A stretch of 64,000 nt of DNA, from assembly GCF_018446385.1 (NCBI RefSeq), contig NC_055987.1, positions 4,051,705-4,115,704 of the forward strand, read 5' to 3'. The first letter of the stretch is position 1. Every line of letters starts with the position of its first letter. The stretch comes from Zingiber officinale. Its lineage: Eukaryota; Streptophyta; Magnoliopsida; Zingiberales; Zingiberaceae. Positions 9,285 to 57,557 of the stretch are shown here, piece after piece. Below the pieces are notes generated by a model. That model was given only the letters and a program-made list of their open reading frames with translations, was not told the origin of the DNA and searched no databases. The position numbers and the translations under genes are program-made.

Positions 9285-11905
9285 TAGGAGTTAGAAAAGA
9301 AACAAAAGAAAAAGAGTAGAAGAGATTATTAAAACTCAGAAAGGTGCTCTTCATAAATTTTTTAAAACTAGCTCTTTAATTGAAGATTCAATTGATAAAT
9401 TACAAGAATAAAATCAAGAACTAAATGATTATACAATAGATGAGCAACAACTAAGTAATCAAGAAGAACTAAATGATTATGCAACAATTGAGTAATCAAG
9501 AAGAACTTAATAATCATACAATCAATGAGCAGAAAGAATTGATAGAAAATGATGACAATAATCATGCAATGAATGAGTAAGAAGAATTGAAAGAACATGA
9601 TGATAATGATTTGAATATAGAAGTTGATAATATAATTGAGAATGAAAATAAGTTAGAGAAAACTGGTCATGTTTTGGATATATAAGATCCAAGATCTTGG
9701 GATAACATTGATAATAAAACACGAGATCTTTTGGTAGAGAAAGTTCCTATAAGAGAAAGTAATCTTAAGTTCACTGTAGATGAGCTATCGAGACATTTTC
9801 ATATTCTTATTACACAAGAAAATTACCAAATGGAGAGAATCAAGATAGAAAATGGCTTGTATACTCGAAAGATGCAAACAAAGTATATTATTTTTGTTGC
9901 AAATTGTTTAAATCAGTGAAAAATAAAAGTTTGCTGGCAAATGAAGGTCTGAATGAATGGAAACGTTTAAGTGATAGACTTAGACAATGGTATTGAGCAT
10001 ATTACTAACATGAGAACTTGGATTGATTTGGAAATTAGATTGAAAAAGAATGAAACAATTGACAAAGAGATCCAAGTGCAAATTAAGAAAGAGAAAGAAC
10101 ATTGGAAACTTGGCTAGGATTATTTCTGTTGTGAAATGTCTTGCTAAACGTAATTTGGCTTTTCGCGGAGATAATGAAAAAATTTACCAAACTAGTAATG
10201 GTAACTTTTTAGGGTTACTTGAATTAATTGCAGAATTTGATTTGGTAATGCAAGAGCATTTTAGACGCATTCAAAATAATGAGATCCATTATCATTACCT
10301 TAGTCATAAGATTCAAAATGAGTTGATTTTTATATTAGATTCTAAAGTCAGAAGTACTATAATTGAAAAAAATGAAAGAGGCAAAATATTTTTCAGTAAT
10401 ACTTGATTGTACTTCAGATGCAAGTCACCATGAGCAAATTACTTTGATAATTAGATGTGTGGATGTCTTAACTTGTCCTATAAAGGTAAATGAGTATTTT
10501 ATAGAGTTTTTAAAAGTGGATGATACATCTAGATTAGGACTTTTTAATGAATTACAATATATTTTAGAAACCCTTGGACTTGATATTGATAATGTGAGCG
10601 AGCAAGGTTATGATAATGGTTCTAATATGAAAGGTAAAAATCAAGGTGTACAAAAGAGATTTCTTGAAATAAATCCAAGAGCATTTTATATGTCATGTGC
10701 TTGTCATTCTCTTAATTTAACAATTTATGATATGACAAATTCTTGTGTTAAGGCTGTGTCATTTTTTGGAGTTGTGCATCGCATGTATACTTTATTTGCT
10801 AGTTCTACAGAAAGGTGGAAGATTTTATAAGATCATGTTCATCAATTAACTCTAAAGTCATTGTCAACAACAAGATGGGAAAGTCATGTTAATAGTATCA
10901 CAGCCATAATAACTCAACCAAATGAGATAAGAGAAGCTTTATATGAATTATCGAAAGTTAGTGAAGATGCTAAGACTAGGAGTGAGGCTGAATCTTTAGT
11001 AATACATGAACTTGAAAATTTTAAAATTTTGTTGGGTATGACTATATGGTATAACATTTAGAAAAAAAATTAAATTGATTAGTAAAAAGTTGTAATCTAA
11101 AGATATGCAAATTGATATTGCAATAAAGATTTTGAGATGATTGATTTCTTATTTTGAAAGATATAGGGAGGAAGGTTTCCAATTTGCTATGACATTAGTG
11201 AAAGAGATTGCATTTAAAATAGAAATTGATCCTATTTTTCCTCAAAAACGTACAACTCATAGAAAGAAACAATTTAATGAAAATTATCATGAAAAGATTT
11301 CACAATCTGTTGAGGAATCTTTTAGGATTAATTATTTTATTATTGTCGTTGATATTGCTATTTCCTCTTTAAAAAGTAGATTTGAACAATTAGAAATCTT
11401 TGAAAATATTTTTGGTTTTCTATTGAATCCTAAAAAGTTTCTTTCAATGAATGATAATAGATTGTATGAGTGTTGTGATAATCTTAAAGTTGCTCTAAAA
11501 TATAATGACAAGTTTGATATTGATGCTGATGATTTATTTTCTGAATTATAAGTGCTACAAATGTGTTTACCAATAGAAACAAAGTCAGCTTTTGAAGTTC
11601 TTGAGTTTGTAAAAGTATTATATTATTTTCCTAATATTTTCATTACTTATAGAGTTTTGTTAACTATACACATTACTGTAGCATCAGTAGAAAGAAGTTT
11701 TTCTAAACTAAAATTGATAAAATCGTACTTGCGTTCAACTATGTCTCAAGAAATATTAAATGGCTTGGTAATTTTATGCATTGAAAATGAGATCTTAGAA
11801 AACTTGATTTGGAAGAGTTTATTGATGATTTTGCTTCCTAAAATGCTAGAAGATTTAGATTTTTTCAATGATTATTTGATACTTGTTTTGTTTTTGTATT
11901 TGTAG
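9285..11905 (+). pseudogene. hAT-superfamily transposase, TTF-zinc-finger (ZMYM1-like) type, broken
   Basis: Broken plus-strand frames give the domain order of plant TTF/ZMYM1-like hAT transposases. A basic start (KRKRVEEIIKTQKGAL..FF) is at about 9300. An acidic Asn/Glu-rich linker made of imperfect repeats spans 9400-9660. A TTF-type zinc-finger region ends [12 protein letters not shown] (about 9860-9910). The DUF4371/RNase-H core has [36 protein letters not shown] and TTRWESH (10360-10900). The C-terminal hAT dimerisation part has TVASVERSFSKLKLIK (11680-11800). At least five stops or frameshifts (for example near 9918, 10380, 10828 and 11550) prevent expression. The encoded enzyme would cut and paste hAT DNA, but this copy is dead. 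Confidence 0.85.
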
Positions 11906-15723: not shown

Positions 15724-18700
15724 TCAAATATCTAAAAAATAGCAAAGACATTTCGGAGCTTGGACAAAAGAAAAAAAATTGTGTGGCAAAAAAAAGTTGA
15801 TGATGAATCGTATATATATAATGACGTGAAAAGAGATTTGAGGATTAACTAACAATACGAAAGAAGGAGTGCAATAATAAAAGCTCTCTGTACATGGAAA
15901 TAAACGGGCGTCAAGGCTACTTACTCTCCTCATCACTCTTTCCATGTAGAACCTTTCCGACTGCTCCTCCAGCGTTGGATGTACTTTGCCAATGCAAATG
16001 AAAACATCTAGTGACATGGGAAGCCCATCCTCTGGCATCGCTTGAATCTGTGGACAGTTACATATTTCTAGTGCTTTGAGAAAGGGAGAAAGTCTTATCT
16101 CTGGCAGTGATTGGAGCTGTGGACAGTCACACATCTCCAATTTTTCTAAGAGGGGAAAGTTATGCAGCAGCTCTGTTGGCAGGGATTGTAGTTTCTTACA
16201 ATAACGGAAGCTTAGAGATGTAACAGCAGTGAGGCTTTGCATCAATATGGCATCCTCAAATATCACCTCCTCAGAACATGATTCAATTTCAAGTTCTTTG
16301 ATGAATGACAGTGAGTTTCTCAGAGGAAACATTTTAAGCAGAGCAGTGTTGTCCACACATAATTTACGCAGAGATGACAAGCCCCCTGCTTGCTCATCTT
16401 CTACATCCAACTGAACTAGCATAGGACATCTTACGATCTTCAATTTCTCGAGGGATTTAAGGAGTCCTAGGCACTCCATCCGTCTCAACTCATCACAGTT
16501 AGAGATGTACAAATATTGCAGTTCTACCAATTGAACGAGAGGAATAGACGCTATACGTGGGCAATGCCTTATGGTCAATCGAGTAACTAAACGAAGGTTG
16601 GGCAAGCAATCAGGCAAAAGTTTTGAATATTCGCCACAGTTGTCCAATTCTAATACCTTGATTGAGGGCGGTAGATGGCAGCTACCTTCCTCGTCATCTT
16701 CCGTTTTGTTATTTAATATGAGACTGGGACAGTTTGTTATTGCCAATATTTCTAGGGAAGGAGGGAAGGGAGGTAATCTGTTTAGTTTGGGACAATCTCT
16801 GGCACAAAGTTCACGCATGCAGGGAAATAGATCTTTACCCTCAGTCCAAGACCACTCCTCTAATGCCGGCAAATCGTACAACTCAAGCATTTCCAATTTG
16901 GGAAAACACTTGCCTTCAAATTCATGACTCAGTTGTTTCAAAGCAGGCATGCTGACCATGCGAAGTTCAATCAGATGCAAACGTTGACCAATAAATGGCA
17001 GAACGTCATCCCATCCCTTGCAATTTACCAAGTCAAGTGTTTCCAAATTGGATAGAACTTTTGGCATCAACCAACTAGGCGACCTACCTCCATTGTACCC
17101 TCTAATTGTCAATATTTTGAGTGATTCGTGTGGCTGCAGACCTTCAATTACTTCCTCTTCCAACTTGGCATCCTTCTCATCATTCCATTGCAGCACCAAT
17201 TCTTTTAGATGGACTTTGTTCTTTAACTCAGCATGCTGTGCTTCTGTGCCATCGACCACATTCTCAAGATTTTGAATATGAAGTGTTCCATGAAGCTGGG
17301 TCATATCCTTTAGTTGTTCAAGCTTGAGTCCGTCATCCTCTTGAACACTAAATGTTGGCAATTCTTGAAGATTAGTTAATCTTCGTACATCCTTCATCAT
17401 CACCAAAAACATGTCATTTGCATCAATGCATCTCAAATTGACCAACTTACTCAATTCTTGTGGTATGTACTCTAGTTTAGAACAACCTTTTACCTTCAGT
17501 GTTTGCAAATTATAAAGGTAGGATAGTAAGTCAGGCAAAATTTTAATTTCAGAATTCCATGATATATCAAGGTAACGGAGGTGAATCAATTTACCAATAT
17601 GTTCAGATAACTCCTGCAAGGAACACCAACTTACATCCAAAACACGAATGCTTCTTAGTTTTTCAAAGAGGCTATCGGGAGATGATTTTTTTCTCAACAT
17701 CAAGGTGTGCAACTTGTCGTATCCAGAGAAATCCAATGGCAATTTTCCTCCTACTCGTAGATGCCGAATCGTGGAAAGCATCTTTGTTTGTCTGTTATTT
17801 TCAATCCTACATGTCTCTTCCGTAGAAATCATCTCAGCTAAATCATGTATAAGGTCATGCATCACGAATTCACCAAATTGCAATTCTTGAAAGAAAGACC
17901 GGTTAATAAACTCAAGAAAATAGTCGCTTCCAACATCTTCCATCCTCTTTGTGTTATTATCTTCGATGAAGCCTTCGGCCATCCACATTTGAACCAATTT
18001 GTCTTTATCGAATAGGTAGTCTTTAGGAAACAATGAGCAAAAAGTAAAGCACTGTTTCAGATTTTCATTAAGATATTGATAACTTAAATGCAGGGCTGGC
18101 ATAATGTCATCTTCATCTTGTTTTATTTTCCATATGTCGCTCTTCATTATGGTGTCCCAGTGTTGCTGGCACAAATCTGATTGCAGAACACTGCCGAGTG
18201 TCTTTGCGGCTAATGGTGAGCCCTTCAACTTGCCAGCAATATTTCTACCAATGTCTTTTAGCTCTGGATAGTCTTCAGGGTCGAGTGTACCAAATGAGCA
18301 TTTCTTGAACAATTGCCAAAAGGCATCTTCGTCTAAACCATGGAGCAAAATTGGTTCCACCAAGCTAACCATTTTTGAAACTTTCATATCTCGAGTCGTA
18401 ACAATGATTTTGCTACCATGAGCTCCAACTTTAAGTAGTGCACATAATTTATGCCAGATACTCTTATTATCGCTCCACATGTCGTCAAGAACAAGCAGAA
18501 ATTTCTTATTCGCAATATGCTCATGGAGTAGTTTTTGAAGAGGTTCTAACCCCATGTTATCATATTGTTTTTGTGGAGTTACTGACTGTATTATAGATTT
18601 AGCGAGTCCTTGCACAGTGAAATTGTCAGACACACAGACCCAAATCTTGAGGTGAAAATGAACCTGAACTCTGTTGTGTTTGTGCGCATACTGAGCAAGA

Positions 18701-19404
18701 GTAGTCTTTCCGGCCCCTCCTATCCCGACAATGGGCAAGACCGAAAAAGCATCGTTGACAAATGCCGATGCAGGTTCCACCTGATTAGCTGACCCCAACA
18801 ACCAGTCCACCACTTGATTCAGTTCTTTGTCTCTGCCAAACAATATGTCCGTCACCGGGGAAGAGCATGATTCTCGAGCCTGAAACTTCACCTCAGGTCG
18901 CTTCCTTCTATCATTTGGTGGTAACACATTCATGATGCTCTTCATACGATTAGCAATTTTCTCCAGCCTTCCTTGCATCTTCCTCACTCTAGCTCTCGTA
19001 TCATCTTCCTCCAAGGAATGAGAAGAACCCAATAACTTTTTTTTAGCAGCATAGAACATGTTTGAAAGGCCACTGGAGCCAGTTGCTAACTTGTCCTCTT
19101 CTTCACCTTTGATCTTCTGCCTGAGGACATGATATTGGAACTCATCTATCAAGTCCTCAGCATCATAAGCAGCATCCTTGAGTTCCTGTATCAATGTCTT
19201 CCATTTGGTGTCGTTGCACCCACTACTCTGTACCTCGTCAAGGATGATTTGAATCTCCAGCAGCGATGGGTGCAGATTTTCCATGTCCTCAGCGAAACCC
19301 CGGCGTTCGGCAAACAGTTGGATGGATTTATCGCTGGCCTTATCGATCAAGGTCTGGATGAAGGCCTGCGCGAACCATCCCCCCACTGTTAGTGCGACCG
19401 CCAT
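15724..19404 (-). CDS. CC-NB-LRR (CNL) disease-resistance-type protein
   Basis: An uninterrupted frame of 1226 codons encodes an intracellular immune receptor that would sense pathogen effectors and trigger defence through its nucleotide-switch domain. Visible domains are: N-terminal coiled coil (Rx_N-like, about 1-130) with YDAEDLIDEF; NB-ARC with P-loop GIGGAGKTT (227-235), kinase-2 LLVLDDMW (303-310), RNBS-B KIIVTTRD (332-339), GSPLAA (395-400, GLPL motif), RNBS-D CFTFCSLFP (452-460) and MHDL (515-518); then an LRR region to about residue 1150. All switch motifs look functional. I chose the ATG at 19404 because MAVALTVGGWFAQA is the usual CNL start. An upstream in-frame ATG (19518) lies inside a probable 5' UTR intron. 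The last ~65 residues are unlike an LRR and hydrophobic. A GTAAGT at 15924 could be a donor removing them. No TIR domain is present, as expected in monocots. Confidence 0.93.
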   Translation of the reverse strand: MAVALTVGGWFAQAFIQTLIDKASDKSIQLFAERRGFAEDMENLHPSLLEIQIILDEVQSSGCNDTKWKTLIQELKDAAYDAEDLIDEFQYHVLRQKIKGEEEDKLATGSSGLSNMFYAAKKKLLGSSHSLEEDDTRARVRKMQGRLEKIANRMKSIMNVLPPNDRRKRPEVKFQARESCSSPVTDILFGRDKELNQVVDWLLGSANQVEPASAFVNDAFSVLPIVGIGGAGKTTLAQYAHKHNRVQVHFHLKIWVCVSDNFTVQGLAKSIIQSVTPQKQYDNMGLEPLQKLLHEHIANKKFLLVLDDMWSDNKSIWHKLCALLKVGAHGSKIIVTTRDMKVSKMVSLVEPILLHGLDEDAFWQLFKKCSFGTLDPEDYPELKDIGRNIAGKLKGSPLAAKTLGSVLQSDLCQQHWDTIMKSDIWKIKQDEDDIMPALHLSYQYLNENLKQCFTFCSLFPKDYLFDKDKLVQMWMAEGFIEDNNTKRMEDVGSDYFLEFINRSFFQELQFGEFVMHDLIHDLAEMISTEETCRIENNRQTKMLSTIRHLRVGGKLPLDFSGYDKLHTLMLRKKSSPDSLFEKLRSIRVLDVSWCSLQELSEHIGKLIHLRYLDISWNSEIKILPDLLSYLYNLQTLKVKGCSKLEYIPQELSKLVNLRCIDANDMFLVMMKDVRRLTNLQELPTFSVQEDDGLKLEQLKDMTQLHGTLHIQNLENVVDGTEAQHAELKNKVHLKELVLQWNDEKDAKLEEEVIEGLQPHESLKILTIRGYNGGRSPSWLMPKVLSNLETLDLVNCKGWDDVLPFIGQRLHLIELRMVSMPALKQLSHEFEGKCFPKLEMLELYDLPALEEWSWTEGKDLFPCMRELCARDCPKLNRLPPFPPSLEILAITNCPSLILNNKTEDDEEGSCHLPPSIKVLELDNCGEYSKLLPDCLPNLRLVTRLTIRHCPRIASIPLVQLVELQYLYISNCDELRRMECLGLLKSLEKLKIVRCPMLVQLDVEDEQAGGLSSLRKLCVDNTALLKMFPLRNSLSFIKELEIESCSEEVIFEDAILMQSLTAVTSLSFRYCKKLQSLPTELLHNFPLLEKLEMCDCPQLQSLPEIRLSPFLKALEICNCPQIQAMPEDGLPMSLDVFICIGKVHPTLEEQSERFYMERVMRRVSSLDARLFPCTESFYYCTPSFVLLVNPQISFHVIIYIRFIINFFLPHNFFSFVQAPKCLCYFLDI

Positions 19405-19472
19405 CTGACCGCAGAAGAGAGCAGCGGCAGATCCTGTTTTTTTTTTTCTCTCAGATCTGCAAGCCAAAAGAG

Positions 19473-19610
19473 CTGCAAAAACAAAACAAAGACAGTAGTA
19501 ATCAAGCGCCAACGCCATGTAGTAGATCGAACTATTGATTTGATTGATGACAAATTACAAGGATTAATATATATAGCAAAGTAATATATATGTATAAGAG
19601 ATTTGATTAC
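19473..19610 (-). other. Probable 5' UTR intron of the NLR gene
   Basis: On the minus strand the donor GGAG|GTAATC (19610) and acceptor TTTTTGCAG (ending 19473), preceded by a T-rich tract, frame a 138-base intron upstream of the chosen start codon. Splicing would remove the upstream in-frame ATG at 19518. Inferred from sequence signals only. Confidence 0.5.
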
Positions 19611-24590: not shown

Positions 24591-25046
24591 AATGTACCGC
24601 AGTATAAGTTCACACGTATACTATCGAAAATTAAAGAAATAAAAGGAATTCTTAATCACTTATGTCATCAGTTCTTTTTTTAAAAAAATATATTAAAAAA
24701 ATATTTTATTAGTAATTTAGAATCTGAAATACTCTTTATGTTTCACAAGTAGAATAATATATTTTTAAAATAAAGTAGCCGTGGTGAAATATGATACAAT
24801 AACTCAATATAAAAATAATCTTCACTTCAAATTGCAACCAAAATTTCTATCGCCACCGTCAAATTTCATGTGCTAACACATGCCTCAATAAGCTTCACAA
24901 TCCGGCTCTAACTGAATCGGATTGTTCTAACTAGGGATGAGCAGTTTTAAATTGATGAACCTGCTCATATTAATCTAAATTAAACTTAAAAAATAAACGC
25001 ATCAAATAAAGAATTGGATGTAGGATTCTGCGCGCTCTCAGGATGG
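24591..25046. other. AT-rich intergenic, with segments shared with 20.3 kb and 31.3 kb
   Basis: 24640-24775 resembles 20320-20460, and 24840-24910 (CAAATTTCATGTGCTAA, CACAATCCGGCTC) resembles 31280-31360. No gene was seen. Confidence 0.5.
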
Positions 25047-25055
25047 TCTAATGAC
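25030..25055 (+). repeat. SINE-like fragment, 5' part with A-box, split by MITE and Pack-MULE
   Basis: GGATGGTCTAATGAC here and TAGTACATGAGGTATTG...GATTCGAATCTCGG at 30258-30300 join into a tRNA-like unit with A-box (TGGTCTAATGA) and B-box (ATTCGAATC) at normal distance. Each box departs from consensus by one base. The identification is moderate. Confidence 0.45.
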
Positions 25056-25228
25056 GAGGGCAGATTATCTGGACCGTAAAAAGTGATCCAAGGGATGATC
25101 CCTTGACTTGGATTAGTTTAAGGGATGGTCCCCATTCATAAAATAAATGGGGACCATTCATCCCCATCAATCCAGATCAAGGGATCATCCTCTGGACCGC
25201 TTTTTGCGGTCTAGAGAATCTGGGCTGG
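25056..25228. mobile_element. Mutator-type MITE abutting the Pack-MULE
   Basis: A 173-bp foldback. GGGCAGATTATCTGGACCG with GTGATCCAAGGGATGATCCCTT on the left matches GCCCAGATTCTCTAGACCG with GGTCCAGAGGATGATCCCTT on the inverted right. TCTAATGAC flanks it on both sides (25047-25055, 25229-25237). Its ends resemble those of the adjacent 5-kb MULE (GGGGCCGATCTTCTGG), so both probably use the same transposase. Confidence 0.7.
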
Positions 25229-25237
25229 TCTAATGAC

Positions 25238-25905
25238 GGGGCCGATCTTCTGGTCCAAAAATCCCTGGTCCCCTCCTGGACCACATTCCTCATATAAAAC
25301 CCTCTCTCACGCACGAAGCACGTGCACGCGGCAACGCACAGAAAAACAAGCCCTAGCCTCTTCCTCTCGTCGCCTCCCTCCAGCGAGCCCTGTCCCACCT
25401 CCCTCCGACGTTCCAGCCCCCGGCGACCTCCCTCCCACGGCCTCCAGCAAGCCCCGTCCCCCCTCCCTCCCGCGGCGACCTCCAACGACCTCAGCGTCTC
25501 CTCCCTCCAGCGAGCCCTGTCCCCCCTCCCTTCGACGTTCCAGCCCTCGGCGACCTCCCTCCCACGGCCTCCGGCGCCCGCGGCGAACTCCAACGGTCTC
25601 AGCGTCGCCTCCCTCCCTCCAGCGCCGTCTCCAGCGCCCGCGGCGACCTCCAGCGGCCTCAGCGTCGCCTTCCTCCCTCCAGCGCCACTTCAGCGACCTC
25701 CAGCGTTCACGGCGACCTCCAGCGGCCACCTCCCCGCGACCTCCAGCGTCCGCAACGACCTCCAGCGGCCCCCTCCCTGCGACCTCCCTCCCGCAGCCTC
25801 CAACGACCTCCCTCTCGCTGCCTCCAGCGACCTACAGCCGCCTCCGTCCCGTGGCCTCCAGCGACTTCCCTCACCTCCAGCCGTCTCCCTCCCTGGATTA
25901 GGTAA
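25238..25905 (+). repeat. Left TIR of the Pack-MULE, GC-rich with inward TATA box
   Basis: The outer 130 bp carries CATATAAAA at 25291-25299 and then a GC-rich leader of CCTCCAGCGACC-type modules. The inverted copy is at the right end. Open frames in this block (Pro/Ser/Arg-rich) look like composition artefacts. A TTAG|GTAATAG donor-like site at 25901/25902 marks the inner edge, pointing towards the invertase exons. Confidence 0.88.
25291..25299 (+). promoter_or_regulatory. TATA box in left TIR
   Basis: CATATAAAA followed by a GC-rich leader, facing the captured invertase exons. The same box occurs inverted in the right TIR (30185-30193). MULE TIRs often act as promoters, and activity here is inferred. 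Confidence 0.5.
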
Positions 25906-26525
25906 TAGTTGTTGAAAATTTCTCATATCAGTTAGTTGAAAACCTGAATTTTATTTGCTTGGAACATTATTTAGTAGCAGCAATAATTCTATTTCTCCTC
26001 TTGAGATCCAAGTAAGTGTATCTTTCCTTCTTTTTTTTTTTTTTTTTTGATGAATATTCAATATCCTTAAGGCATTTAGTCTAGTAATACGGGTTCTATT
26101 TTTGCCATCTCAGATACTTGTTCTCTTCCAACTGATGATGACAAATCACCATGCATGAATTAATTGGCTAATCCCTGTCCTTTTGATAAAAATAGTTAAA
26201 TGCTTCCCATAAGTAATTTATTTTCAGGGGTTAAAAGATATGCTTGCACCGAACAGAGATTAAGTTAAGAAGCTGGATTACTAATTGATAGCTGGAATTT
26301 CAATACAAGGCCAATAAGATAGTCCAAAGATGAGAACCGTATAAACTATGCCTTTTAAACCTCAATGACATTAATGCATTCAAGTAATGAAATGAATCTG
26401 TTTTATTTAGTTCAATTTTAGTATTGGTTAAAGTGATTTGTAATTTTGGAATCTGAGCGAGACAGATAGCTGATTCTGTTGATGTTTATTTATGTAACAA
26501 TGCATATTTGGTAATTTTCATACAG

Positions 26526-27868
26526 GCTTTATTCTACTGTGCTTTGCGTTGCTCGCGTGAGATGATTGCCTCTGATGATGGATCCAGGAGCTTGCTGCTT
26601 GCTGTTAATAGAAGGCTCACTGCACTATCATTCCATATCAGAGTACTTTTGGGTTGACATGAAGAAGATCAATGAGATTTATCGCTACAAGACTGAAGAA
26701 TACTCCCAAGGTGCTACTAACAAATTCAACATCTATCCGGAGCAAATTCCTAGTTGGCTAGTTGATTGGATTCCTGAAAAAGGTGGCTACTTGATTGGGA
26801 ACCTTCAGCCAGCTCACATGAATTTCTGGTTCTTCTCACTGGGTAATCTATGGGCTATCACTTCATCTTTACCCACTCCGAGACAAGCCGAGGAGATTCT
26901 GAACCTGATGGAGAAAAAATGGAAGGATTTCATTGGAATATACCTCTGAAGATATGTTATCCTGCGTTAGAATATGAAGAATGGCACATAATTACTGGAA
27001 GTGATCCGAAAAATGCGTAAGTAAAAAACCCAACATAGCCTTCTGTTTAATGAGAATCTCATCTTCATGGCTTAGAACTTGAATCAGTTTTCTATCATCT
27101 TTCACCAATATGATATATTGATGATGCTAGTGATATGAAATGCTACTAGTTATTCTAAAAGCAAAAGTAATAAGCCACCATAAACTCAAAAGTTCTCTTT
27201 GATGATTGTCATAATTGCTAAGTATCTTGATCTAATAACACTCGATAATTTGTGAATCATATTTCCGTCATTCTTTACTAATATGACAAATTGTTGATGT
27301 TAGTGATACCAAATATCACTTGTTATTCTAAAAGCATAGGCAACAGGTATCCATAAAAGTTATCTTTGATGATTGTTGTAGTTGCTTAGTTTCTTGATCT
27401 AATAGCACTATATATTTTGCAGGCCTTAGTCATATCATAATGGTGGACCATGACCTACCCTACTATGGCAGGTATTATAAGTGTTCATCGATAGTTCTCT
27501 AACACTATTACTTCCAATCGTGTTACTAAATGAGTTGCCTTTGTGATTTTCTAGTTCACATTGGCTTGCATCAAGATGGGCCGGCCTGAATTAGCTCGTA
27601 AAGCTGTCTCAGTAGCTGAGAAAAGGCTTTCGAATGATCAATGGCCTGAATACTATGACACCCTGACCGCAAGATTCATCAGTAATCAATCACGATTGTA
27701 TCAAACATGGACAATTGCTGGGTTTCTGGCATCAAAGTTGCTACCGGAGAATCCAGAAATGGCATCCATATTCACATTTGAGGAAGATATGGAACTACTG
27801 GAAGGCTGTGCCTACAGTCCGACAAATCATCCTCGTGCCAAATGCTCATGACGCGTTCCAAAAGCGTA
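26526..27868 (+). pseudogene. Captured fragment of an alkaline/neutral invertase gene (GH100)
   Basis: Neutral invertases split sucrose into glucose and fructose in cytosol or organelles. Three exons with GT..AG borders remain: 26526-27016, 27423-27471 and 27555-27868. They encode the C-terminal part: [109 protein letters not shown] and [14 protein letters not shown]. The fragment is dead. A 2-bp loss near 26640 and a 1-bp loss near 26938 shift the frame. Both Trp codons around SYHNGG are stops (TAG, TGA). The frame ends at a TGA at 27849, 19 bases before a later TAG. The N-terminal half of the enzyme is missing. Intron sequence upstream (25910-26525) was captured with it. Confidence 0.9.
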
Positions 27869-28850
27869 GGTCCTCGTATAACTTGTTGAAGATACGCAAC
27901 CATTCTTTGATGCTTGTACTATATATAAAAAAAAGGAAAACCATAGATGGAAGAGGGATCCACCTCCACACAACATTGTTTCCTCATTGAGGTATGCTCT
28001 TTTTTTTGTTGAGCTACCATGATGGTGACTGTGTATCAGTGATGTGTAAAAGATTTGGCCTTTGTAACAAAAAATATGTATGTTTTGATGACACATTGAT
28101 TCATATAACTTTTTTTTTTATGTTCATGTTGATCCATATTTTGTATAGAAAGGAATTTTTGTAATTAACACCCAGCAACCTTGAAAGAATATTTATTATT
28201 TTATATGTAATCAAAATGCAAATTATACTTTATAGCTCAGATAAGTTCTGTAGGCGATTCACAAAATAAATCAATGCAAATTTCATAATAACGATCCTTA
28301 TTAGTCGCCAAATTGCGAACTTAAGTTGAGTGCAGTGCAAAAAAAAAAAAAAAACAAAGACCCTTATGAAATGAAGTTTTGGGCTTCATTGAATCATTGA
28401 AAGAAATAGAACAATGGGAAATGGAACACAATCTTAATGACTTGAATATCTTATTTGGGATTTCCAAGTAGAATGCTACAAGAAAATTCTTGGTGAAATA
28501 AATTACAAACTCAGATGAGTTAATTTCATATAAATTTGCTGTAAATAATTGACATACACTGCCTCAAGCATAAGCAACCCATGTATTAAGAAGAAAATAA
28601 TAGTTAGGGATGATCCAAGGACTTTTCCTTCAATATTTAGGCTTCAAAATTAGTCTCATCATTCTCCATCACTAGATCAACATCCATTATATCTCGACAG
28701 CCAAAGAGCTAGCAGCTTGGGAGTAGGTCAGAGACCAAGCAACTGTTCTTGGTGCCCGTCCTGCATATCCACAAATTTTTTTTAAAAAAAATCTGCATTA
28801 GCAATCTAAGAAAGGGTAAACTTCAGTCAGTCAATACTCTATAGTCAGGA
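27869..28850. other. Pack-MULE interior, probable invertase 3' flank
   Basis: 27869-28150 is probably the 3' UTR captured with the invertase exons. Beyond it I see AT-rich sequence without a recognisable gene. A minus-strand AG-type acceptor-like site near 28766 precedes a short open stretch that I cannot identify. Confidence 0.4.
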
Positions 28851-29590
28851 GTATGGAACCTGATCAGCGTGAGAAACAAAGTCAACTCTTCTCTGACTTC
28901 TTACTTGATCCGATATCTCCTGTGTGCTTGCTTTATCTTTAAAAAAAAATACGTTCATTTTTTGTCTTGAACCCAGTTGGTGCTTAGTTCTCTTTCTTCT
29001 TTGCACAATGATAGTTGGATCTGAAAGACAACAGAAAATGAAAATGTGTAGAAGTGGATGCACTTAATCCAACTGAAAACTCAATAAATTCATCTAACAG
29101 ACATTGTCCCCAAACCTGGTCATAGGGGAAAAAAACAAGATGTCGTGACACACTTAAAAATGTTCTCCAGATTTCATAACTTCTACGCTAAATGCACTGC
29201 CAGTTTACATGTCAATAACATCTACACATATGACAGTAGAATGAATGCAAACCCACAAGTAACTGAATAACATAACCAAATATATATTACTAACAAAGTA
29301 TGACCATTAGAAGTACAATTGACAGGATTTTATGCAAGTTAAAAATGAAGAATTGGTGAAGCTTAGCTTAGGCAGCAAAAGGGTTGTATGTAAGAAAAGA
29401 ATAAATGAATTGCAAATAACACGAAATTCTAGAATTAAGAACAATCCACACATAAAAATGGAGATGACTGGAATATTTGAGAAGATGTAGAGGACCAACC
29501 TTTGACAGAGATCTTCAAAGATCAAGATCCGTTCCAAATGCACAACACCGCTTGCATTGCTTAAATAATCTTCAAATTGCTCTGTCCACA
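28850..29590 (-). pseudogene. Second captured gene fragment, unidentified
   Basis: On the minus strand, next to the right TIR, about 90 bases encode TEQFEDYLSNASGVVHLER followed by ILIFEDLCQR and a donor-like CAAAG|GTTGG (29500/29499). An acceptor-like T-rich CTTTCAG ends at 29021, followed by a Lys/Arg/Gln-rich open stretch to about 28855. Codon-like composition and splice signals suggest a piece of a host gene unrelated to the invertase, but the two parts do not join in one obvious frame and I do not recognise the protein. It could also be chance. Confidence 0.4.
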
Positions 29591-30248
29591 CGGTGCCAAG
29601 GACGGAGGTCGCTGGAATCGAATTCGAGGGAGGCGACTGGAGAGGGCGCTGGAGGGAGGCCGCAGGCGACGAGGGAGGCCGGCGCTGGAGGGAGGGAGGC
29701 GACGCTGGAGTTGGAAGATGCTAGGGCTTTTTTTGTGCGTTGGCGTGTGCAGGAGGGCGGCGCTGGAGAGTGGTGACGAGGGAGGCCGGCGCTGGAGACG
29801 GCGCTGCAGGGAGGGAGGCAACGCTGAGGCCGCTGGAGGTCACCGCGGGCACTGGAGGGAGGGAGGCGACACTGAGACCGCTGGAGTTCGCCGTGGGCGC
29901 CGGAGGCCGTGGGAGGGAGGTCGTCGGGGGATGGAACGTCGGAGGGAGGGGGGACAGGGCTCGCTGGAGGGAGGCAACGAGGGAGGCGACGCTGAGGTCG
30001 TTGGAGGTCGCCGCGGGAGGGAGGGGGGACGGGGCTTGCTTGAGGTCGTGGGAGGGAGGTCGCCGGGGCTGGAACGTCGGAGGGAGGGGAGACAGGGCTC
30101 GCTGGAGGTAGGCGACGAGAGGAAGAGGCTAGGGCTTGTTTTTTTTTGTGCGTTGCCGCGTGCACGTGCGTGCGTGAGAGAGGATTTTATATGAGGAATG
30201 TGGTTCAGGAGGGGACCAGGGATTTCTGGTCCAGAAGATTCGGCCCCG
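29590..30248 (-). repeat. Right TIR of the Pack-MULE
   Basis: This is the inverted copy of 25238-25905, closely matching over the outer 250 bp (CTCATATAAAA, CTCTCACGCACG, ACGTGCACGCGGCAACGCAC). The inner GC-rich modules are more rearranged. It carries an inward TATA box at 30185-30193 facing the second captured fragment. Confidence 0.88.
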
Positions 30249-30340
30249 TCTAATGACTAGTACATGAGGTATTGTCTGAGATTCGAATCTCGGTAAAATC
30301 AAGATAAATACCTTCCTTATATATTAGTATTCCAAATACT
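30249..30340 (+). repeat. SINE-like fragment, 3' part with B-box
   Basis: This is the continuation of the unit interrupted at 25055. It begins with the duplicated TCTAATGAC, then CATGAGGTATTGTCTGAGATTCGAATCTCGG. Without the two DNA transposons the A-box to B-box spacing is about 32 bases. Confidence 0.45.
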
Positions 30341-33995: not shown

Positions 33996-36900
33996 CCTCA
34001 ATTAAATTATAGTTTGGATGTATTCTGATACCTGTTCTTGGGGTAGGATTATACCATGAATATTTGAATAACACACACCATTTTATAGATAATGTAGGAT
34101 ATTCAACCTCAACAATTTCCTCAAGTCTACTATAGTAATCAAACTGAGTGTTATTGTTGTTCATAGATCTTTGACGTAAATACCTAAATTATAGGTTAAT
34201 CTACGTGAATCTCGTTGTGCCATGTGGAATTTGAGGCCATTAACATAATAACCATAATAGGCCTTTATTTTATAGAGGGGTCTTGATGCAAGATTTATTA
34301 TCTTATTATCTTACACATTTGATATTCTATGGTCTTTTACCTATAAAAATAGTAAACATTAGGACACTTCTTAATACACATGAACTTAAAATTTTGATAA
34401 ATTCTCTAAATTACATATATTTAAAACTATAATGCAAATTCAGCTTCTAACTTTTTAACTATCTCACTTGCACCCATTGATGAATTTTGTAGATATAGTT
34501 GATGTTCGTACAAGTTGGAAAAGAAGGTAATTTTAAGATAATTGGGATATCAAGTAAAATAATTAAACAGAGGATAAATGTTTGATTAGAGAAGTCAACT
34601 TACTTTAGGTATGGTTTGACCTCTTCACAGTTTAAGAGTATGTATGTGCTTGCAGCATGATATTCTTCTTGGGTTAACCATCTAGAAAGCGATGCACCCA
34701 TTAACTTATAAGGAAACTTGAAAATAGAAAGTATCGATAGGTCTATTAGCTGAGAAACATCATCAGAATTTTTAGGATACTAGGATGTCTTGTTTGCATA
34801 CTATCAACAAAATAATAGGAGCAGAAAAAAATGCTTCTTCAACCAGATAAGCATTATATATTAACCCCTCAACTCTTACTTTGTTACAAACATTATTCTT
34901 TAATTCCCTCAAAAATCATTTGAATGCATACATCCATCTATATTGCACAGGACCTGCTATTTGTACATCGTATGATAAATGTACTGATAAATGTTCCATT
35001 AAATCAGATAAATTGGGTGGAAACATACATTCCAGTTTATATAATATGAGAGAAATGTATGTTTTTAGTTGAAACATATCATCCATCATAATACACATCA
35101 TTGTCAAATCTCTAACAAATAGATTCAATTTTGCGAGTGTTTGCCAAATATTATAAGAAAGTAAATCATAGAAATCTACTGGAATAAGTCTTTGCATGAA
35201 TACATGACAGTCATGACTCTTCATTCCAAACATCTTTATCCTATTCGTATCCATGCATCGAGCCATATTTAAAACATACTTATCTGGAAATTTGATTTCT
35301 TTCAACCAATTATATAAAGTTTGCTTACCATCTTTGTCCAATATATAACAATCTTTTAGAAATCTATTGATTGTTTAATTCTAATGCAACTCTAGTCTGT
35401 TGACTAGTTCTTTTAATTTCTCACATGATTTTTACAGTGTCTTTAGTTCTTCTAGGCACATTCATCATAGTGTTGAAGATATTATCAAAGAAAATTTTCT
35501 CAATATGCATAACATCTAAATTATATCGAATAAGTAGATACTTCCAATATGTCAACTCCAAAAAATACTTCTTTTCTTCCAACCTAACTTACACATCCTA
35601 ACAATGTATTTATAACTTATCGGAACTAAGTTAAAATACTGGTAGAAATTCATAATTATCTATTTGTTCAATAATTTCTTCACCTGAAGCATGGACTGTC
35701 GAGGAGGTTTTTTTATTACAATATTTTTTAGGATTTTTTTTATTTCTCCTGAAAGGGTAATCAATATGTAAAAATTTACGATGATTATCAAACCAAGATA
35801 TCTTTCCACTACAAGGTAATGAAAATACATCAGAATCTGTCATACAGTGTGGGTATGCTAATGTACCAGTTGTGCTCTATCTCAATAATATTGAATATGC
35901 TAGAAAATCACTAATCGTCCATAGGCAGCATGCAATCTACAATTAGTTTTACTTGCAACATCATAAGTAACCGACCCTACATTCCATAGTTCATTCAATC
36001 GGCAATTAAAGGTTGTAAGAAAACATCAATCTTCTCTTTGGGATTGGTTGGATAAAAAATTAGCACGGTAAAAAAATATAAATTCATCTTTCATGAACAT
36101 CCATAGTGGTAAATTATACGGTGTTAATATAACTGGCTAAGATGAATATTGTTGTCCCGATTGACCAAATGACTGAAATCTGTCTACGAAGAGTTTCAAT
36201 CTGACATTACGCGGTTCCATTGAAAAGGAGGGAAATACAGTATCAAGATATTTCCATACAGGAGAATCACAAGGATGACACATAATACCTCCTTCGTGCT
36301 TATGTTCACGATGTCACATTATGTGGCAAGTTGTAGCAAGAGATGCATACAAGTGTTGAAGTCTAGCAGTTAAAGGAAAGTAATACATCACTTTCCAAGC
36401 AATATTTTTCCTTTTCTTCCTTAGTATGTGAGTACGATGATTATAACGAGGGTGAGTATAGATTTTGCATTCACTCAAATCATTGTCTTCATTCCAAAAT
36501 ATCATGCAGTTGTTTATATAATAATCAATCTTCTCTATATGCAAACCTAAATCTTTAATCAATTTTTTATACTGTAAAAACTATCAGTCATTATGTTATC
36601 AGTAGGAAGCAACTCTGATATCGATTGACATATGTCATCATAACATCTTTCTGAAAAATAACAGTAGCTGATAGTTGAGAATGACCAGAGGGAATGTCTT
36701 CCCACACTTCTATTTCACTATCTTTTAACATTTCATATAGTTGTTGATCTTCAGGTGTTGATATTTCATCTATATTGGAGTAATCAACTGTAATATTTAT
36801 TACATCGTGAACCATTGATTGCATTGGAACATCATAAGATGATGATTCATGTACAGTAAAAGTTATACTAGATGATGAATCACCAGAAGGCTCAATTGGT

Positions 36901-52679: not shown

Positions 52680-55600
52680 TCCGTCCTCATCCTCCAGATA
52701 ATCTCCCGAGCGGAGCTTCTCGATGATTTTGAAAGGGCTGCCCATGGCGCTTCAAGCTTGCCGACGTCGCTTGACTTTCTTCCAGACGAGATCGCCGACT
52801 TGGAACGATCTGGGAATTCCGTCGGTTGTAGTTTTGCTTCATCCGTGACGGTATCAGCCGAACGGACGCCTTTGCCCTCTCCTCTTCTACCAAGTCCACT
52901 CTATGTTTCTTCGTTCGGTGTTGTCATCATCATAGTTCCGGATCCTGGCCGACTCACTTCGACCGGTATGACAGCCTCACCGCCATATACCAAATGGAAC
53001 GGTGTGACTCCGTCCCTTCTTTTGGCGTCGTTCGGATAGCCCACAAGACGCTCGGCACCTCGTCCGGCCAACTCCTCCTAAACGGTCGCGCAGAATGCGA
53101 AGAATTTTCCGGTTGGCGACTTCAGCTGACCGTTGCTCGAGGATAGGCCACGGATGTGAAATGTTGCTCAATCTCGTAGCTTTGGCACCAATCCTCCAAC
53201 ATCTTCCCCGTGCCGCCCGTTGTCGGACACCAATCGGCGAGGGATGCCGAACCGACAAATGATGTGTTGCCAAATGAATTTTTAACCATTTGCTCGGTGA
53301 TCTTGCAGCGGCTCGGCCTCCACCCACTTGGAGAAATAGTCTACCGCCACTAGTAAAATTTCCTCTGCCCGATCGCCATCGGAAATGGACCTACAATATC
53401 CATTCCCCACCGATCGAACGGACATGAGATGGTTGATGCCTTCATCTCCTCTGCCGGTCGGTGGGAGAAGTTGTGATACTTCGCATGAAAGGCATGTAGA
53501 TATTGTAAAGTTGGCCAAAAGTATCCGGCCAAAAGGATCTTCTTGGCTAACGAGCGTCCGCCCGGATGACCTCCACATGATCCTTGATGTACTTCCTGGA
53601 GGATGTAAGCTGAGTCTTCCGAGCTTACACATTTTAGCAGAGGACGCGAGAAAGCTTTCTTGTAAAGCTGATCTCCGATGAGTGTAAACCCTTCTGAGGA
53701 GCCGGGCTGCATATTCATCGGATGGTGTGGTGCCCGAACGGAGGAATTCCATAATAGGTGTCCTCCAGTCACTTGGAAACGCGAGGCCTTGCATCCGGTC
53801 GACATGCGCCACCATCAGCGTTTTTTCAATTGGCTGCTGAATGGCGATCGGCGTTATTGAGCTCGCGAGTTTGGCCAACTCATCGGCCGCCTGGTTCTCC
53901 GTTCGGGGAATCTTCTGAATAAGCACCTCTCGGAAAGTAGCTTTGAGTTCCTCAAAGGCCTCAGCGTAGAGTTTAAGCCGAACACAGTTGATTTCAAAGG
54001 TGCCGGAAAGTTGCTGAGCGGCCAACTGTGAATCCGAATAGAGAGTTACCCGACCGGCCCCCACATGTCGTGCCGCCTGTAATCCAGCTATAAGGGCCTC
54101 ATACTCTGCCTCATTGTTGGTGGCCTTGTAGTCCAGCCGGACAGATAGGTACATCTTTTCTTCTTGCGGTGAGATAAGTAATATCCCAATCCCGCTTCCG
54201 AGTCGAGTGGAAGACCCATCCACATATATCTTCCACAGAACTTCCGGCTCGGGCCTCTGCACTTCGGTCACAAAATCAGCCAAGGATTGGGCTTTAATCG
54301 CCGAGCGGGGCTGGTACTGGATGTCAAACTCGCTTAATTCTGTCGTCCACTTGATAAGCCGTCCGGACGCTTCTGGATTCAACAGGACTCTTCCGAGTGG
54401 ACTGTTCGTCCGGACAATGATTGTGTGGGCCAAGAAATACGGTCGAAGGCGCCGAGCGGCTAGAACCAATGCAAAGGCCAACTTCTCGAGCCCGGTGTAG
54501 CGAGATTCAGCATCTCGCCCTCACAAGTGCTGAGCCTACAGCATGTTCAGTTGACGACAAATACATATACAGTGACTCACCTCCGATCGGCTTGGCCAGT
54601 ACAGGCAGGGAATTCAGATATGTTTTCAACTCTTCAAATGCTCGGTCACACTCTTCGTTCCACTGGAACTTAGTAGCCTGCGTAGGATCTTGAAGAATGG
54701 CAGGCTCCGGTCGGCGGTTTTGGAGATGAATCGACAAAGCGGTTATCCGACCGGTCAACCGTTGCACTTCCCTTGTGTTTCGGGAGGAAGCATGTCTTGC
54801 GAGCTTTCACCTTGTTGGGATTTGCTTCATCCCCGCTCGGTCACTATATACCCCAAGAAACGCCCTCCTTTAGCTCTGAACAGGCATTTCTGGGGATTTC
54901 GCTTGACTCTATATTTGCGCAATGTTCGGAAGGTTTCTTCCATATCCTTGAAAAGATCGGCCGCTCGGACGGATTTGATAAGAATGTCGTCCACGTAAAC
55001 TTCCAGGTTCCGCCCGATCTGCTCCTTGAATACCTTGTTCATCAAGCGCTGATAGGTGGCCCCGGCATTCTTCAATCCGAACGGCATCACATTGTAGCAA
55101 TATGTGCCGTCGGACGTTACGAAGCTCACCTTTTCTTGATCTTCGCGGGCGAGCGGTACCTGGTGATAGCCCTGGTAGGCGTCGAGCATGCAAATTAACT
55201 CACAGCCGGCCGTAGAGTCCACCAGCTGATCTATCCGGGGCAGAGGATAAAAATCTTTGGGACATGCTTTGTTTAAGTCCCGAAAGTCAATGCAAACTCG
55301 CCACTTGCCGCCCGGCTTGGAGACCAATACCACGTTGGCTAGCCAGCTCGGGAACTGCACCTCGCGTATGTGGCCGGCCTCCAGAAGTTTCTCTACTTCC
55401 GCCCGGATTATGGCATTCTGCTCGGCGCTAAAATCTCTTTTTTTCTGCTTCACTGGCCGAGCGTCAGGTCGGACATGCAACTCATGTTGCGCTAGGCTCG
55501 GCGAAATTCCGGGCAACTCGTGTGTCGACCAAACAAAGACATCATGATTTTGCTGGAGGCATTGGATCAGCTTCTTCTTCTGTTTTTCCTCTAGATCCGA

Positions 55601-56130
55601 GGCGATGAAAGTGGTGGCCTCCGATCGGGTCGGATGGATCTGAACTTCCTCCTTTTCATCATAAATTAAAGCAGGAGGTTTCTCGGTTATGGCGTGTACC
55701 TCGATTCGGGGGGCCTTCCGAGCGGAAGAAGCTTCTGCTCGGATCATCTCTATATAGCATCGCCGAGCTGCTAGTTGATCTCCACGCACTTCTCCCCGGG
55801 AAATTTTATCTTTGGTGGAAGGTTGAGACAACCGCTCGGAATTACGCCGTCCCAAAATGACGCGTTGTAGGATGAGGAGAGTCAACCACCACAGTTTGTT
55901 GTCTGGTCCTCTGGCTCTTCTCCCGGTGTGGCCGGATTTGTCCGGTGAACTTCATTGCCCGTAAACCGTAGAGCGGGGTCGTCATGGGCATCAGCTCGAT
56001 CAATTTGATCGAACGCCTTCTTGAATAGTATGTTGACCGAGCTCCTGTCAACAAATATGCGGTGAATGGTGTAATTTGCTATTACCGCTTTAATGAGCGG
56101 TAGCGTCGTGGGTACTTCTACTCCTTCCAA
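52680..56130 (-). pseudogene. Tat pol remnant (PR, RT, RNase H, aRNase H, integrase)
   Basis: PR (56130-55885) reads IFVDRSSVNILF, so the catalytic D-S/T-G triad is lost. RT (55600-54800) is open and complete, with WRVCIDFRDLNKACPKD, LDAYQGYHQVPL, MPFGLKNAGATYQRLMN and YVDDIL. The connection/RNase H part (54767-54507) is in another frame. The archaeal-type RNase H (54290-53860) keeps its four acidic residues (VDGSS, EAEYEA, SDSQL, ADELA). Integrase begins HQGSCGGHPG, GYFWPTL and has WGMDIVGPFP and DYFSKWVEA (53700-53290), then breaks at 53282. Its distal part is shifted (53327-52680). Without an active protease and integrase the copy cannot move alone. Confidence 0.9.
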
Positions 56131-56172
56131 GTCTCGGGCCGAAAGTGATTTCGGTCCACTTGCCGCTCTTGG

Positions 56173-57557
56173 CTACTGACCGTATGGATCTGCGCCGACG
56201 CCTGCCTTTCTTGCTCGGTTGGAGTCTCCTCCGGTCGGCCCACCAGCAATAACGTTGATTTCGCCCCGAGAAGTATTGCTCCTGTTTTCTTCCTCCCGAG
56301 TGGATGGTCGGGACCGTTCCCTGGACGTCCGGCGACTCTCCTGTCTTGGGGATCTATGCCGATCGGACGTATGGTGATGTCGCCTCTCTATGCGGGTCCG
56401 GTCGGCTTCCTGGGTCCTTTGCCTCGTGTTGAGGGGAGGAGACCGTCGTTCGGCTCTCCGGGGAACAGGATTGGACACAAAGGGAAGGCTTCGGCAATCC
56501 CTCGTGTTGTGCGTATCCGTTTGGTGGAATTTGCAGAACATTGGGGTCCACCTCTTCTTTGACTTGGGCCGAGCGGCAGCCACTTCTTGTACGTGCGATC
56601 TGGTGTGGGGAGATCGAATTGCTTCAGCCCTTGGTCCTTTAGGTGGTTGCTGAGCGGAGTGCTGCTTCCGCTCGGCATGAACAAGTGCACGCTCGGTTGG
56701 AGCTTCTTTTTTCCGAGCGGCTTGCGCTTCTTCCACGTTTATGTATTCGTTGGCCCGATGTAGCATGTGATCATAGTCTCGGGGCGGCTTTCGGATGAGC
56801 GACCTGAAGAAGTCCCCATCAACAAGGCCTTGTGTGAAGGCGTTCATCATCGTTTCCGATGTGGCTGTTGGGATGTCCATCGCCACTTGGTTGAATCGCT
56901 GGATGTAAGCTCGAAGCGATTCCTTTGGCTCTTGTTTGATGGCGAACAAGCTAACGCTTGTTTTCTGATAACGCCGACTGCTGGCGAAGTGGTGGAGGAA
57001 GGCCGTTCGGAAGTCCTTGAAGCTTGTGATGGATCCGTCCGGCAGCCTACGGAACCACCGCTGAGCCGATCCCGAGAGCGTGGTAAGGAAGACTCGGCAC
57101 TTCACTCCATCAGTGTATTGGTGGAGCGTGGCGGTATTATCAAACTTACCCAAATGATCATCCGGGTCCGTTGTTCCATTATACTCGCCGATCGTAGGGG
57201 GCACGTAGTGCTTGGGCAGAGGATCTCGCAGAATGGCTTCCGAAAATTGGCGGTTGGTCCGCTCGGGAGATGAGTCCGTCCGGGGGGCTTTCCCTTTTCT
57301 GTCATCCCGCCTTGGCATTTCGTCTGAAGAGGAGCCTCTATCTCTCCGAGTTGGTGCTGCTTCAGGGGTGCGAAGAATGCGACGGTGGCTGGAGGTGCTT
57401 CCGCTCGGCCCCCCGACGCGGACGTTGCTTGTTGCTCCGCCCGCTCGGCGGATGCTTTTTGCTTTTGCTCAACGAGTTTGGCGGCCCTTATCTCGACCAG
57501 AGCGTCGAGTTCCTCCCTTGAAAGCGTCACCGTGTGCTGTCGTCCAGCCTCGTCCAT
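56173..57557 (-). pseudogene. Tat gag, one frameshift
   Basis: The reading begins at the ATG at 57557 (MDEAGRQHTVTLSREELD), with a Gln/Glu/Ala-rich helix. It changes frame near 57310 and then continues open to 56173 as a typical Retrotrans_gag domain: YNGTTDPDDHLGKF, LTTLSGSAQRWFRRLPDGSI, FRTAFLHHFASSR, IKQEPKESLRAYIQRF and AFTQGLVDGDFFRSL. A C-x2-H-type knuckle (CKFHQTDTHNTRDC) and an Arg/Ser-rich tail follow. It would form the capsid and bind the RNA. A single frameshift near the N-terminus separates it from an intact frame. Confidence 0.9.

Follow-up and report, generated by a model that had tools for sequence, protein, structure and literature searches.

Among the gene-carrying transposons described so far, the closest counterparts of the element reported here are the Pack-MULEs of rice, a class of Mutator-like element (MULE) of which 481 of 1337 are multicopy and for which gap-filling and template-switching models of capture have been described (PMC8277862; this and the other published systems are cited from excerpts of the papers). 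The ginger (Zingiber officinale) element lies at 25238-30247 of the 64,000-nucleotide stretch analysed (hereafter the window; C2:4051705-4115704, in a searched genome of 3.09 Gb and 211 contigs) and holds the 3′ half of an alkaline/neutral invertase (GH100) gene with its introns. It shares with the multicopy rice elements its terminal inverted repeats (TIRs), a distinct target-site duplication at each copy, captured genomic DNA and a source on another chromosome. We hold it very probable that this is a Pack-MULE of ginger whose interior was replaced by a 3.5-kb copy of a donor locus, and which was moved in trans and amplified; the route of capture, the FAR1-type mobilisation and any transcription are what we infer from the sequences. 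While rice Pack-MULEs tend to capture GC-rich regions (PMC8277862), the captured part in ginger is an AT-rich 3′ half with its flank (35% GC). A rice Pack-MULE with a UDPGP fragment also carries a piece of a sucrose-metabolism gene, in that case UDP-glucose pyrophosphorylase rather than a GH100 invertase (PMC4663468).

The first line of evidence comes from the donor itself. In a search of the genome with window 25900-28000, in which the best 40 of 50 candidates were scored, eight places match at 95-100%. A further two match at 80%, introns included, and other GH100 genes match more weakly and in their exons only. TIRs enclose seven of the eight close matches, while the eighth, L047 at C14:120.65 Mb, is without these TIRs, and its similarity to a paralogous invertase extends upstream of the captured segment. 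The host gene sequence inside the element therefore has a source outside any MULE. This bears out the first-pass annotation, which read the element as a Pack-MULE with an intron-containing GH100 fragment and proposed a search for the parent locus. The L047 gene has six exons with GT..AG borders, which join to 628 codons and one final stop, and its protein covers positions 1-435 of the PF12899 profile (E 2.7e-221) and matches the solved CINV1 6ttj (E 1.8e-187). By its full GH100 profile, its CINV1 match and its single final stop, the donor is a complete and probably functional gene. The captured stretch is contiguous over 3.5 kb, L047 2554-6082 corresponding to window 25996-29588, and this DNA accounts for that whole range of the element interior. 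It comprises 16 nt of exon 3, exons 4-6, introns, the 3′ flank and an opposite-strand, exon-like piece of a neighbouring gene; the three whole exons in order, as first annotated, are thus preceded by the tail of a fourth, and the gene does not continue past the TIRs.

Two other origins were considered and set aside. The paralogue at C11:104.57 / C12:113.60 Mb reaches only 79-80%, whereas C14:120.65 Mb reaches 93.6%, or 96% if gaps are left out, and reading the C11 matches 12-20 kb downstream as the remains of an ancestral compact locus is unneeded, since the whole stretch is contiguous at C14. Within captured intron 4, at 27080-27419, lies a direct repeat of imperfect copies (75-85%) spaced 167-173 bp apart; the donor shares it, and weak traces of it can be seen in the paralogue. 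C14:119467642-119468101, 1.2 Mb from the donor, matches window 29131-29588 at 93% and is perhaps a duplicate of the donor's neighbour gene, and a plasmid search with the invertase fragment found two bacterial GH100 genes.

The second line of evidence is transposition after capture. Seven copies with both TIRs (the window copy and those at L009, L010, L011, L012, L013 and L014) have identical left and right capture borders, and six of them are flanked by a perfect 9-10-bp duplication pair. The duplications are GTCTAATGAC in the window, CTGACAAGG at L009, CCCTATCCC at L010, GAGATTTAG at L011, GGGCTCCCC at L013 and GATTCTCAG at L014, with the non-identical pair ATTTTATGT and ATTTTAAAT at L012; a search for further TIR copies, suggested at first pass, thus yields six, five with perfect 9-bp duplications and one in which 7 of 9 bases agree. 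Contig neighbours C1/C2, C3/C4, C11/C12 and C13/C14 behave as haplotype pairs in the genome matches, and at all five sites examined (L009, L010, L011, L012 and L014; the L013 and window sites lie outside this count) the other haplotype is without the element. The joined flanks of L012 form one uninterrupted stretch at C2:145.88 Mb (96%), as do those of L014 at C12:143.47 Mb (93%), and the partner sites of L011 on C13 and of L010 on C4 each show a single copy of the duplication in the alignment. Seven copies with one border pair, different duplications and five of five empty partner sites amount to transposition of the element after the capture.

The element and the miniature inverted-repeat transposable element (MITE) that adjoins it in the window are made up as follows (window coordinates; a slash in a motif marks a border).

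25046-25055: GTCTAATGAC, copy 1 of the 10-bp duplication, left of the MITE
25056-25227, plus strand: Mutator-type MITE, arms 25053-25114 and 25169-25230, 81% complementary
25228-25237: GTCTAATGAC, copy 2, common to the MITE right end and the Pack-MULE left end
25238-25695, plus strand: left TIR, 69% GC
25696-25901, plus strand: GC-rich sub-terminal leader, 76% alignable to the FAR1-domain MULE L057, ending at a possible splice donor, GATTAG/GTAATAG
25902-25994, plus strand: MULE interior sequence retained at the capture border, in the window copy and L010
25996-26011, plus strand: captured invertase exon 3 tail (..LEIQ), 16 nt with splice donor GTAAGT
26526-27016, plus strand: exon 4 of the captured invertase, bearing two deletions that shift the frame and occur in no copy but that of the window
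27423-27471, plus strand: captured invertase exon 5, with stops (TGG to TAG, TGG to TGA)
27555-27881, plus strand: exon 6 of the captured invertase, cut short by a stop at 27849-27851
27882-29499: captured 3′ untranslated region and intergenic DNA of the donor locus
29500-29588, minus strand: captured exon-like piece of the donor's downstream neighbour, borders by eye
29589-29789, minus strand: right MULE sub-terminal sequence, of which the first ~32 bp recur elsewhere
29790-30247, minus strand: right TIR, 67% GC
30248-30257: GTCTAATGAC, copy 3, right of the Pack-MULE

The TIRs pair at 88% over 458 bp (473-474 alignment columns), and the remainder of the inverted ends of about 660 bp first annotated is poorly pairing, GC-rich sub-terminal sequence. 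Similarly, the 9-bp duplication TCTAATGAC is present on both sides (25229-25237 and 30249-30257) but is one base short of the full 10-bp duplication GTCTAATGAC (25228-25237 and 30248-30257), which sets the bounds of the element at 25238-30247. Both the long TIRs and a target-site duplication within the 8-11 bp of MULEs (10 bp in the window, 9 of 9 in five copies and 7 of 9 in one) are therefore in place. In a Pfam scan of six translated pieces, the four invertase pieces match PF12899 (Glyco_hydro_100) in the right order (best E 2.4e-44), while no match was found for one open reading frame (ORF) of the TIR region or for a 37-aa minus-strand piece, and the exon-like piece of the donor's neighbour is likewise without a Pfam match; the other internal ORFs were listed and not scanned for transposase.

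A further comparison can be made between the Pack-MULE and L057 (C2:130.69 Mb), in which the family TIR is followed by the leader, by ~95 bp also present in the window copy and L010, and then by a FAR1 domain just inside the TIR (PF03101, E 7.3e-16). At the left border L057 reads ..AATAATTCTATTTT/ACC, the Pack-MULE ..AATAATTCTATTT/CTCCTCTTGAG and the donor ACA/TCCTCTTGAG. As the leader and the ~95 bp are common to L057 and the Pack-MULE up to this border, it is probable that the interior of a FAR1-domain MULE was replaced by the captured DNA and the leader was left behind. The five other copies retain only AATTCTATTT, the last ~10 bp of the 25902-25994 stretch, behind other GC-rich sequence, which we read as a later change. 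The 25902-25994 sequence recurs at other places in the genome, some adjoining related TIRs, and the first ~32 bp of 29589-29789 recur at five (94-97%), three of them within TIR pairs. A facing TIR-like start at C2:130681316, 11.5 kb from the L057 TIR, makes C2:130681316-130692819 a candidate larger MULE of the family, with the FAR1 domain inside its right TIR. Pieces of further host genes lie between other TIR pairs of the family (by Pfam, a KIP1 domain and a short-chain dehydrogenase at L051 and a short-chain dehydrogenase at L060; by eye, similar dehydrogenase or KIP1-like ORFs inside related TIRs at L052 and L055), so that gene capture by this family is a repeated event.

The reading that we hold very probable implies the following order of events. 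A contiguous 3.5-kb copy of the invertase 3′ half and its downstream flank probably replaced the interior of a FAR1-domain MULE, the capture at the C14 locus probably taking place by gap repair or template switching. The non-autonomous product was then moved in trans, presumably with the help of a transposase of FAR1 type, and has reached seven copies or more. A number of observations weigh against this reading. The L012 duplication is imperfect (7 of 9), the L011 comparison on C13 spans the junction by only ~40 bp, ~145 bp of other sequence lie beside the L010 site on C4, and the L009 partner site on C12, while without Pack-MULE and without MITE, holds ~230 bp of other sequence, so that this comparison is not clean. 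No allele of the window site was found on C1, where the best match (81%) falls in a local repeat cluster, and no allele of the C14 donor is among the matches listed (best 40 of 50 candidates), so that the donor may lie in a haplotype-specific or unassembled region. Lastly, no complete autonomous partner was found, L057 consisting of one TIR and one FAR1 exon, and no MULE catalytic domain was seen near L057 in the sequence from C2:130688000 onward, in which no search was aimed at one.

The relationships among the copies give some indication of when this happened. Gap-free identity is 96.1-96.6% between copies and donor and 97.8-99.5% among copies, and the tree resolves an L012/L013/L014 group and an L009/L011 group (support 0.996 each). 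A ginger Ks (synonymous divergence) of 0.7 at 63.57 million years (PMC8342452) gives a rate of 5.5e-9 per site per year, at which the capture dates to ~3 million years and the spread to ~2 to 0.5 million years; at a rate of 1.3e-8 the estimates are lower by more than half. The two haplotypes of ginger had most likely separated, or were separating, when the element was amplified to at least seven copies. The L012 copy (C1) is without the part corresponding to window 28559-28666. L015 (C9:145489899-145496145) is a partial derivative made up of window 29313-29806 and one TIR, with a reading frame of RKP_N and SPRY domains ~0.9 kb beyond the TIR end, and two tRNA-Lys(CTT) genes (L010 6685-6757 and 6909-6981, minus strand) lie within 420 bp of the C3 Pack-MULE copy.

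The same copies allow other accounts of the element to be weighed. That a segmental duplication or a retro-copy came to lie between repeats by chance is hardly credible: the captured DNA is collinear with its source, but the retained introns and 3′ flank rule out a retro-copy, and the different 9-10-bp duplications (six of the seven loci, with 7 of 9 bases at the seventh), along with the five empty sites, denote transposition. Very improbable, too, is an expressed functional chimeric gene, in which a TIR promoter and leader exon would be spliced to invertase exons 4-6 to give a truncated invertase-like protein. Although the possible splice donor of the leader and the splice sites of the captured exon are intact in the window, exons 4-6 carry frameshifts or stops in every one of the seven copies, the leader is without an ATG, and the longest ORFs are of 124-141 aa (window, L013 and L014, where every exon is definable). 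Moreover, the fragment begins at the end of exon 3, so that the N-terminal part of GH100 (profile 1-187 of 435) is missing; in place of a complete domain, the pieces span profile 188-435, gapped and interrupted. Sites variable among the copies are as frequent in exons (45/887, 5.1%) as in introns (37/991, 3.7%) and downstream DNA (66/1651, 4.0%), and those in exons show no enrichment at codon position 3 (14/19/12 for positions 1/2/3); sites fixed between copies and donor number 26/887 (2.9%), 23/991 (2.3%) and 43/1651 (2.6%), respectively. Some lesions are private and some are shared within subgroups, L012/L013/L014 having one insertion and two deletions within exons 4-6 in common, but none is common to all seven copies, from which it follows that the ancestral captured exons were probably open and decayed after the spread. 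The captured DNA is now without protein function, and its decay is neutral. A regulatory role, in which antisense or inverted transcripts of the copies would give rise to small RNAs that dampen the donor invertase gene, appears unlikely. In its favour are the identity of the copies to the donor over 3.5 kb, given above, and the 75 of 148 within-copy changes that are G>A or C>T, a bias we infer to be that of methylated, silenced DNA; the inverted repeats of the element, however, exclude the invertase part, and the same bias would be expected of any silenced transposon. For the Pack-MULE reading that we prefer, the likeliest remaining effect, were the copies transcribed, would be small RNA matching the donor gene. 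The effect on sucrose metabolism suggested by the first-pass annotation finds no evidence here, all copies being broken and their exons changing at the rate of their introns, and the element is most likely inert for sugar metabolism.

A separate question is raised by the MITE on the left side of the window element, a 172-bp sequence with inverted arms and the same 10-bp duplication on both sides, so that one duplication, in three copies, flanks both MITE and Pack-MULE. The MITE terminal GATTATCTGGACC resembles the Pack-MULE terminal GATCTTCTGGTCC, the typed MITE end GATCCTCTGGACC agreeing with GATCTTCTGGACC at 12 of 13 positions, while the left end of the window MITE itself matches the typed TIR start locally over no more than 8 bp. 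Among 293 kb of loci, many of them overlapping, relatives of the MITE are confined to L009 (87%) and L013 (84%), where they lie on the same side of the Pack-MULE as in the window and keep the window's orientation with respect to the invertase. The full relative at L013 lies 120 bp from the Pack-MULE and is flanked by a 9-bp duplication of its own, CCCGTCCCC, which marks the MITE as Mutator-type. The L013 Pack-MULE itself abuts a partial second copy of the MITE right half (a 46-bp match, the rest by eye), and its duplication overlaps the last bases of this partial MITE, so the MITE end was there first. At L013 1381-1500 a short stretch of flank and the right half of the MITE each occur in two copies, left by an old tandem duplication at the C4 insertion site. 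In the window the Pack-MULE duplication starts 1 base past the MITE end, at L009 2 bases past it; in all, three of the seven copies (window, L009 and L013) sit 3-10 bp from the same MITE end, one of these MITEs being partial. Joint movement of MITE and Pack-MULE was rejected on their separate duplications and unequal divergence: the full MITEs at L009 and L013 have 87% and 84% identity to that of the window, the Pack-MULEs ~98%.

We tentatively suggest, as an idea that falls somewhat short of an even chance, that this MULE family targets the outer edge of a related MITE, its transposase complex binding the MITE terminal repeat (shared core GATCYTCTGGACC) and inserting at the border. The MITE's own target duplication would be duplicated again, leaving a non-nested tandem of the form duplication-MITE-duplication-MULE-duplication, and sibling ends would act as landing pads for gene-carrying elements. 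Set against this are the four of seven copies without a MITE beside them, the absence of a MITE at any of the seven right ends, and adjacency patterns that were built after the first cases had been seen, with small numbers throughout. The competing explanation, that the MITE lies there by chance or through a shared hot spot, we consider quite unlikely. It can draw on there being only three such copies, one with a partial MITE, on the pattern having been made after window and L009 were seen, and on a shared preference for open chromatin, which could give some excess. The MITE right-end motif has at least 34 exact matches in the 3.09 Gb, a lower bound that misses L009's own MITE end, and when the L009 flank and MITE were used as the query, the best 40 of 486 first candidates were scored. 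Under uniform placement, however, three or more of seven copies would have a P of ~3e-12 even with 3400 MITEs. The first adjacency pattern (MITE end GATCTGGGCT, 0-20 bp, TIR start) matches two genome places, and a looser one with either MITE end matches three, the window, L009 and C4:147.77 Mb, with spacings of 10, 10 and 8 bp. The last place was not known beforehand; only its MITE end aligns to that of the window, and the rest is read by eye as a diverged relative, with neither the far end nor a duplication seen there. Genome-wide, the looser pattern gives 0 at the other MITE end, 0 in the backwards control and 0 with 200-220 bp between; the TIR-start pattern alone has 177 and 106 matches (an exact-match lower bound, with double counting where there are five Gs). 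With L013, whose spacing of 3 bp lies outside the pattern, three of the four cases have a spacing of 8-10 bp, and the unequal divergence that argues against joint movement also speaks against the hot-spot account. Chance does not explain the adjacency, with the small numbers as a caveat. If MITE-edge targeting holds, the landing sites of some MULEs would follow a simple rule of sequence, and neat, non-nested transposon tandems would have an explanation.

Elsewhere in the window, an uninterrupted 1276-aa frame at 15727-19554 (minus strand) with Rx_N, NB-ARC, winged-helix and LRR domains represents a CC-NB-LRR gene; its 5′ side is turned towards the Pack-MULE, 5.7 kb away. Fragments of DUF4371 and DUF4218 at 10363-10827 (plus strand) and 34919-35374 (minus strand) are presumably remains of other DNA transposons, and long reading frames at 53285-57468 (minus strand) resemble retrotransposon polyprotein by eye. 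Window 24510-25046 matches only C1 and C2 at 3.1-4.6 Mb, plus one weak match on C14, suggesting a local repeat cluster.

Because a single diploid genome preserves the donor, a single capture, the retained MULE leader, the amplified copies and the empty partner sites, the order of events in the birth of a Pack-MULE can be read directly from it. The ginger element is not described in the titles or abstract openings of the papers listed on invertase or ginger Pack-MULEs, the main text of the ginger genome paper (PMC8342452) has the word Mutator 0 times, and a MULE inserted at a MITE edge does not appear in the titles, abstract openings and passages searched, most subscription papers lying outside both searches. 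Three described arrangements come nearest. In tandem-TIR MULEs (PMC3310237), two related terminal repeats also stand in a row at one end, but the inner TIR is without a duplication, which excludes nested insertion there, whereas the inner boundary in ginger has one and the adjoining element is a MITE in its own right, more strongly diverged. The SaTar MULE arrays of guayule and rice (PMC5907723) are likewise non-nested, neighbouring MULE-type elements; they are joined by microsatellites, the ginger elements by one copy of the target site. In the rice MITE clusters cited in the same paper, MITE insertions are targeted to the same or other MITE families and some are adjacent, although insertion into elements is commoner there, while in ginger a 5-kb gene-carrying MULE stands at the MITE edge. 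Compared with these systems, the ginger element is one of an ordinary kind in a new place, its position as a gene-carrying MULE at the edge of a MITE being the part for which no match was found.

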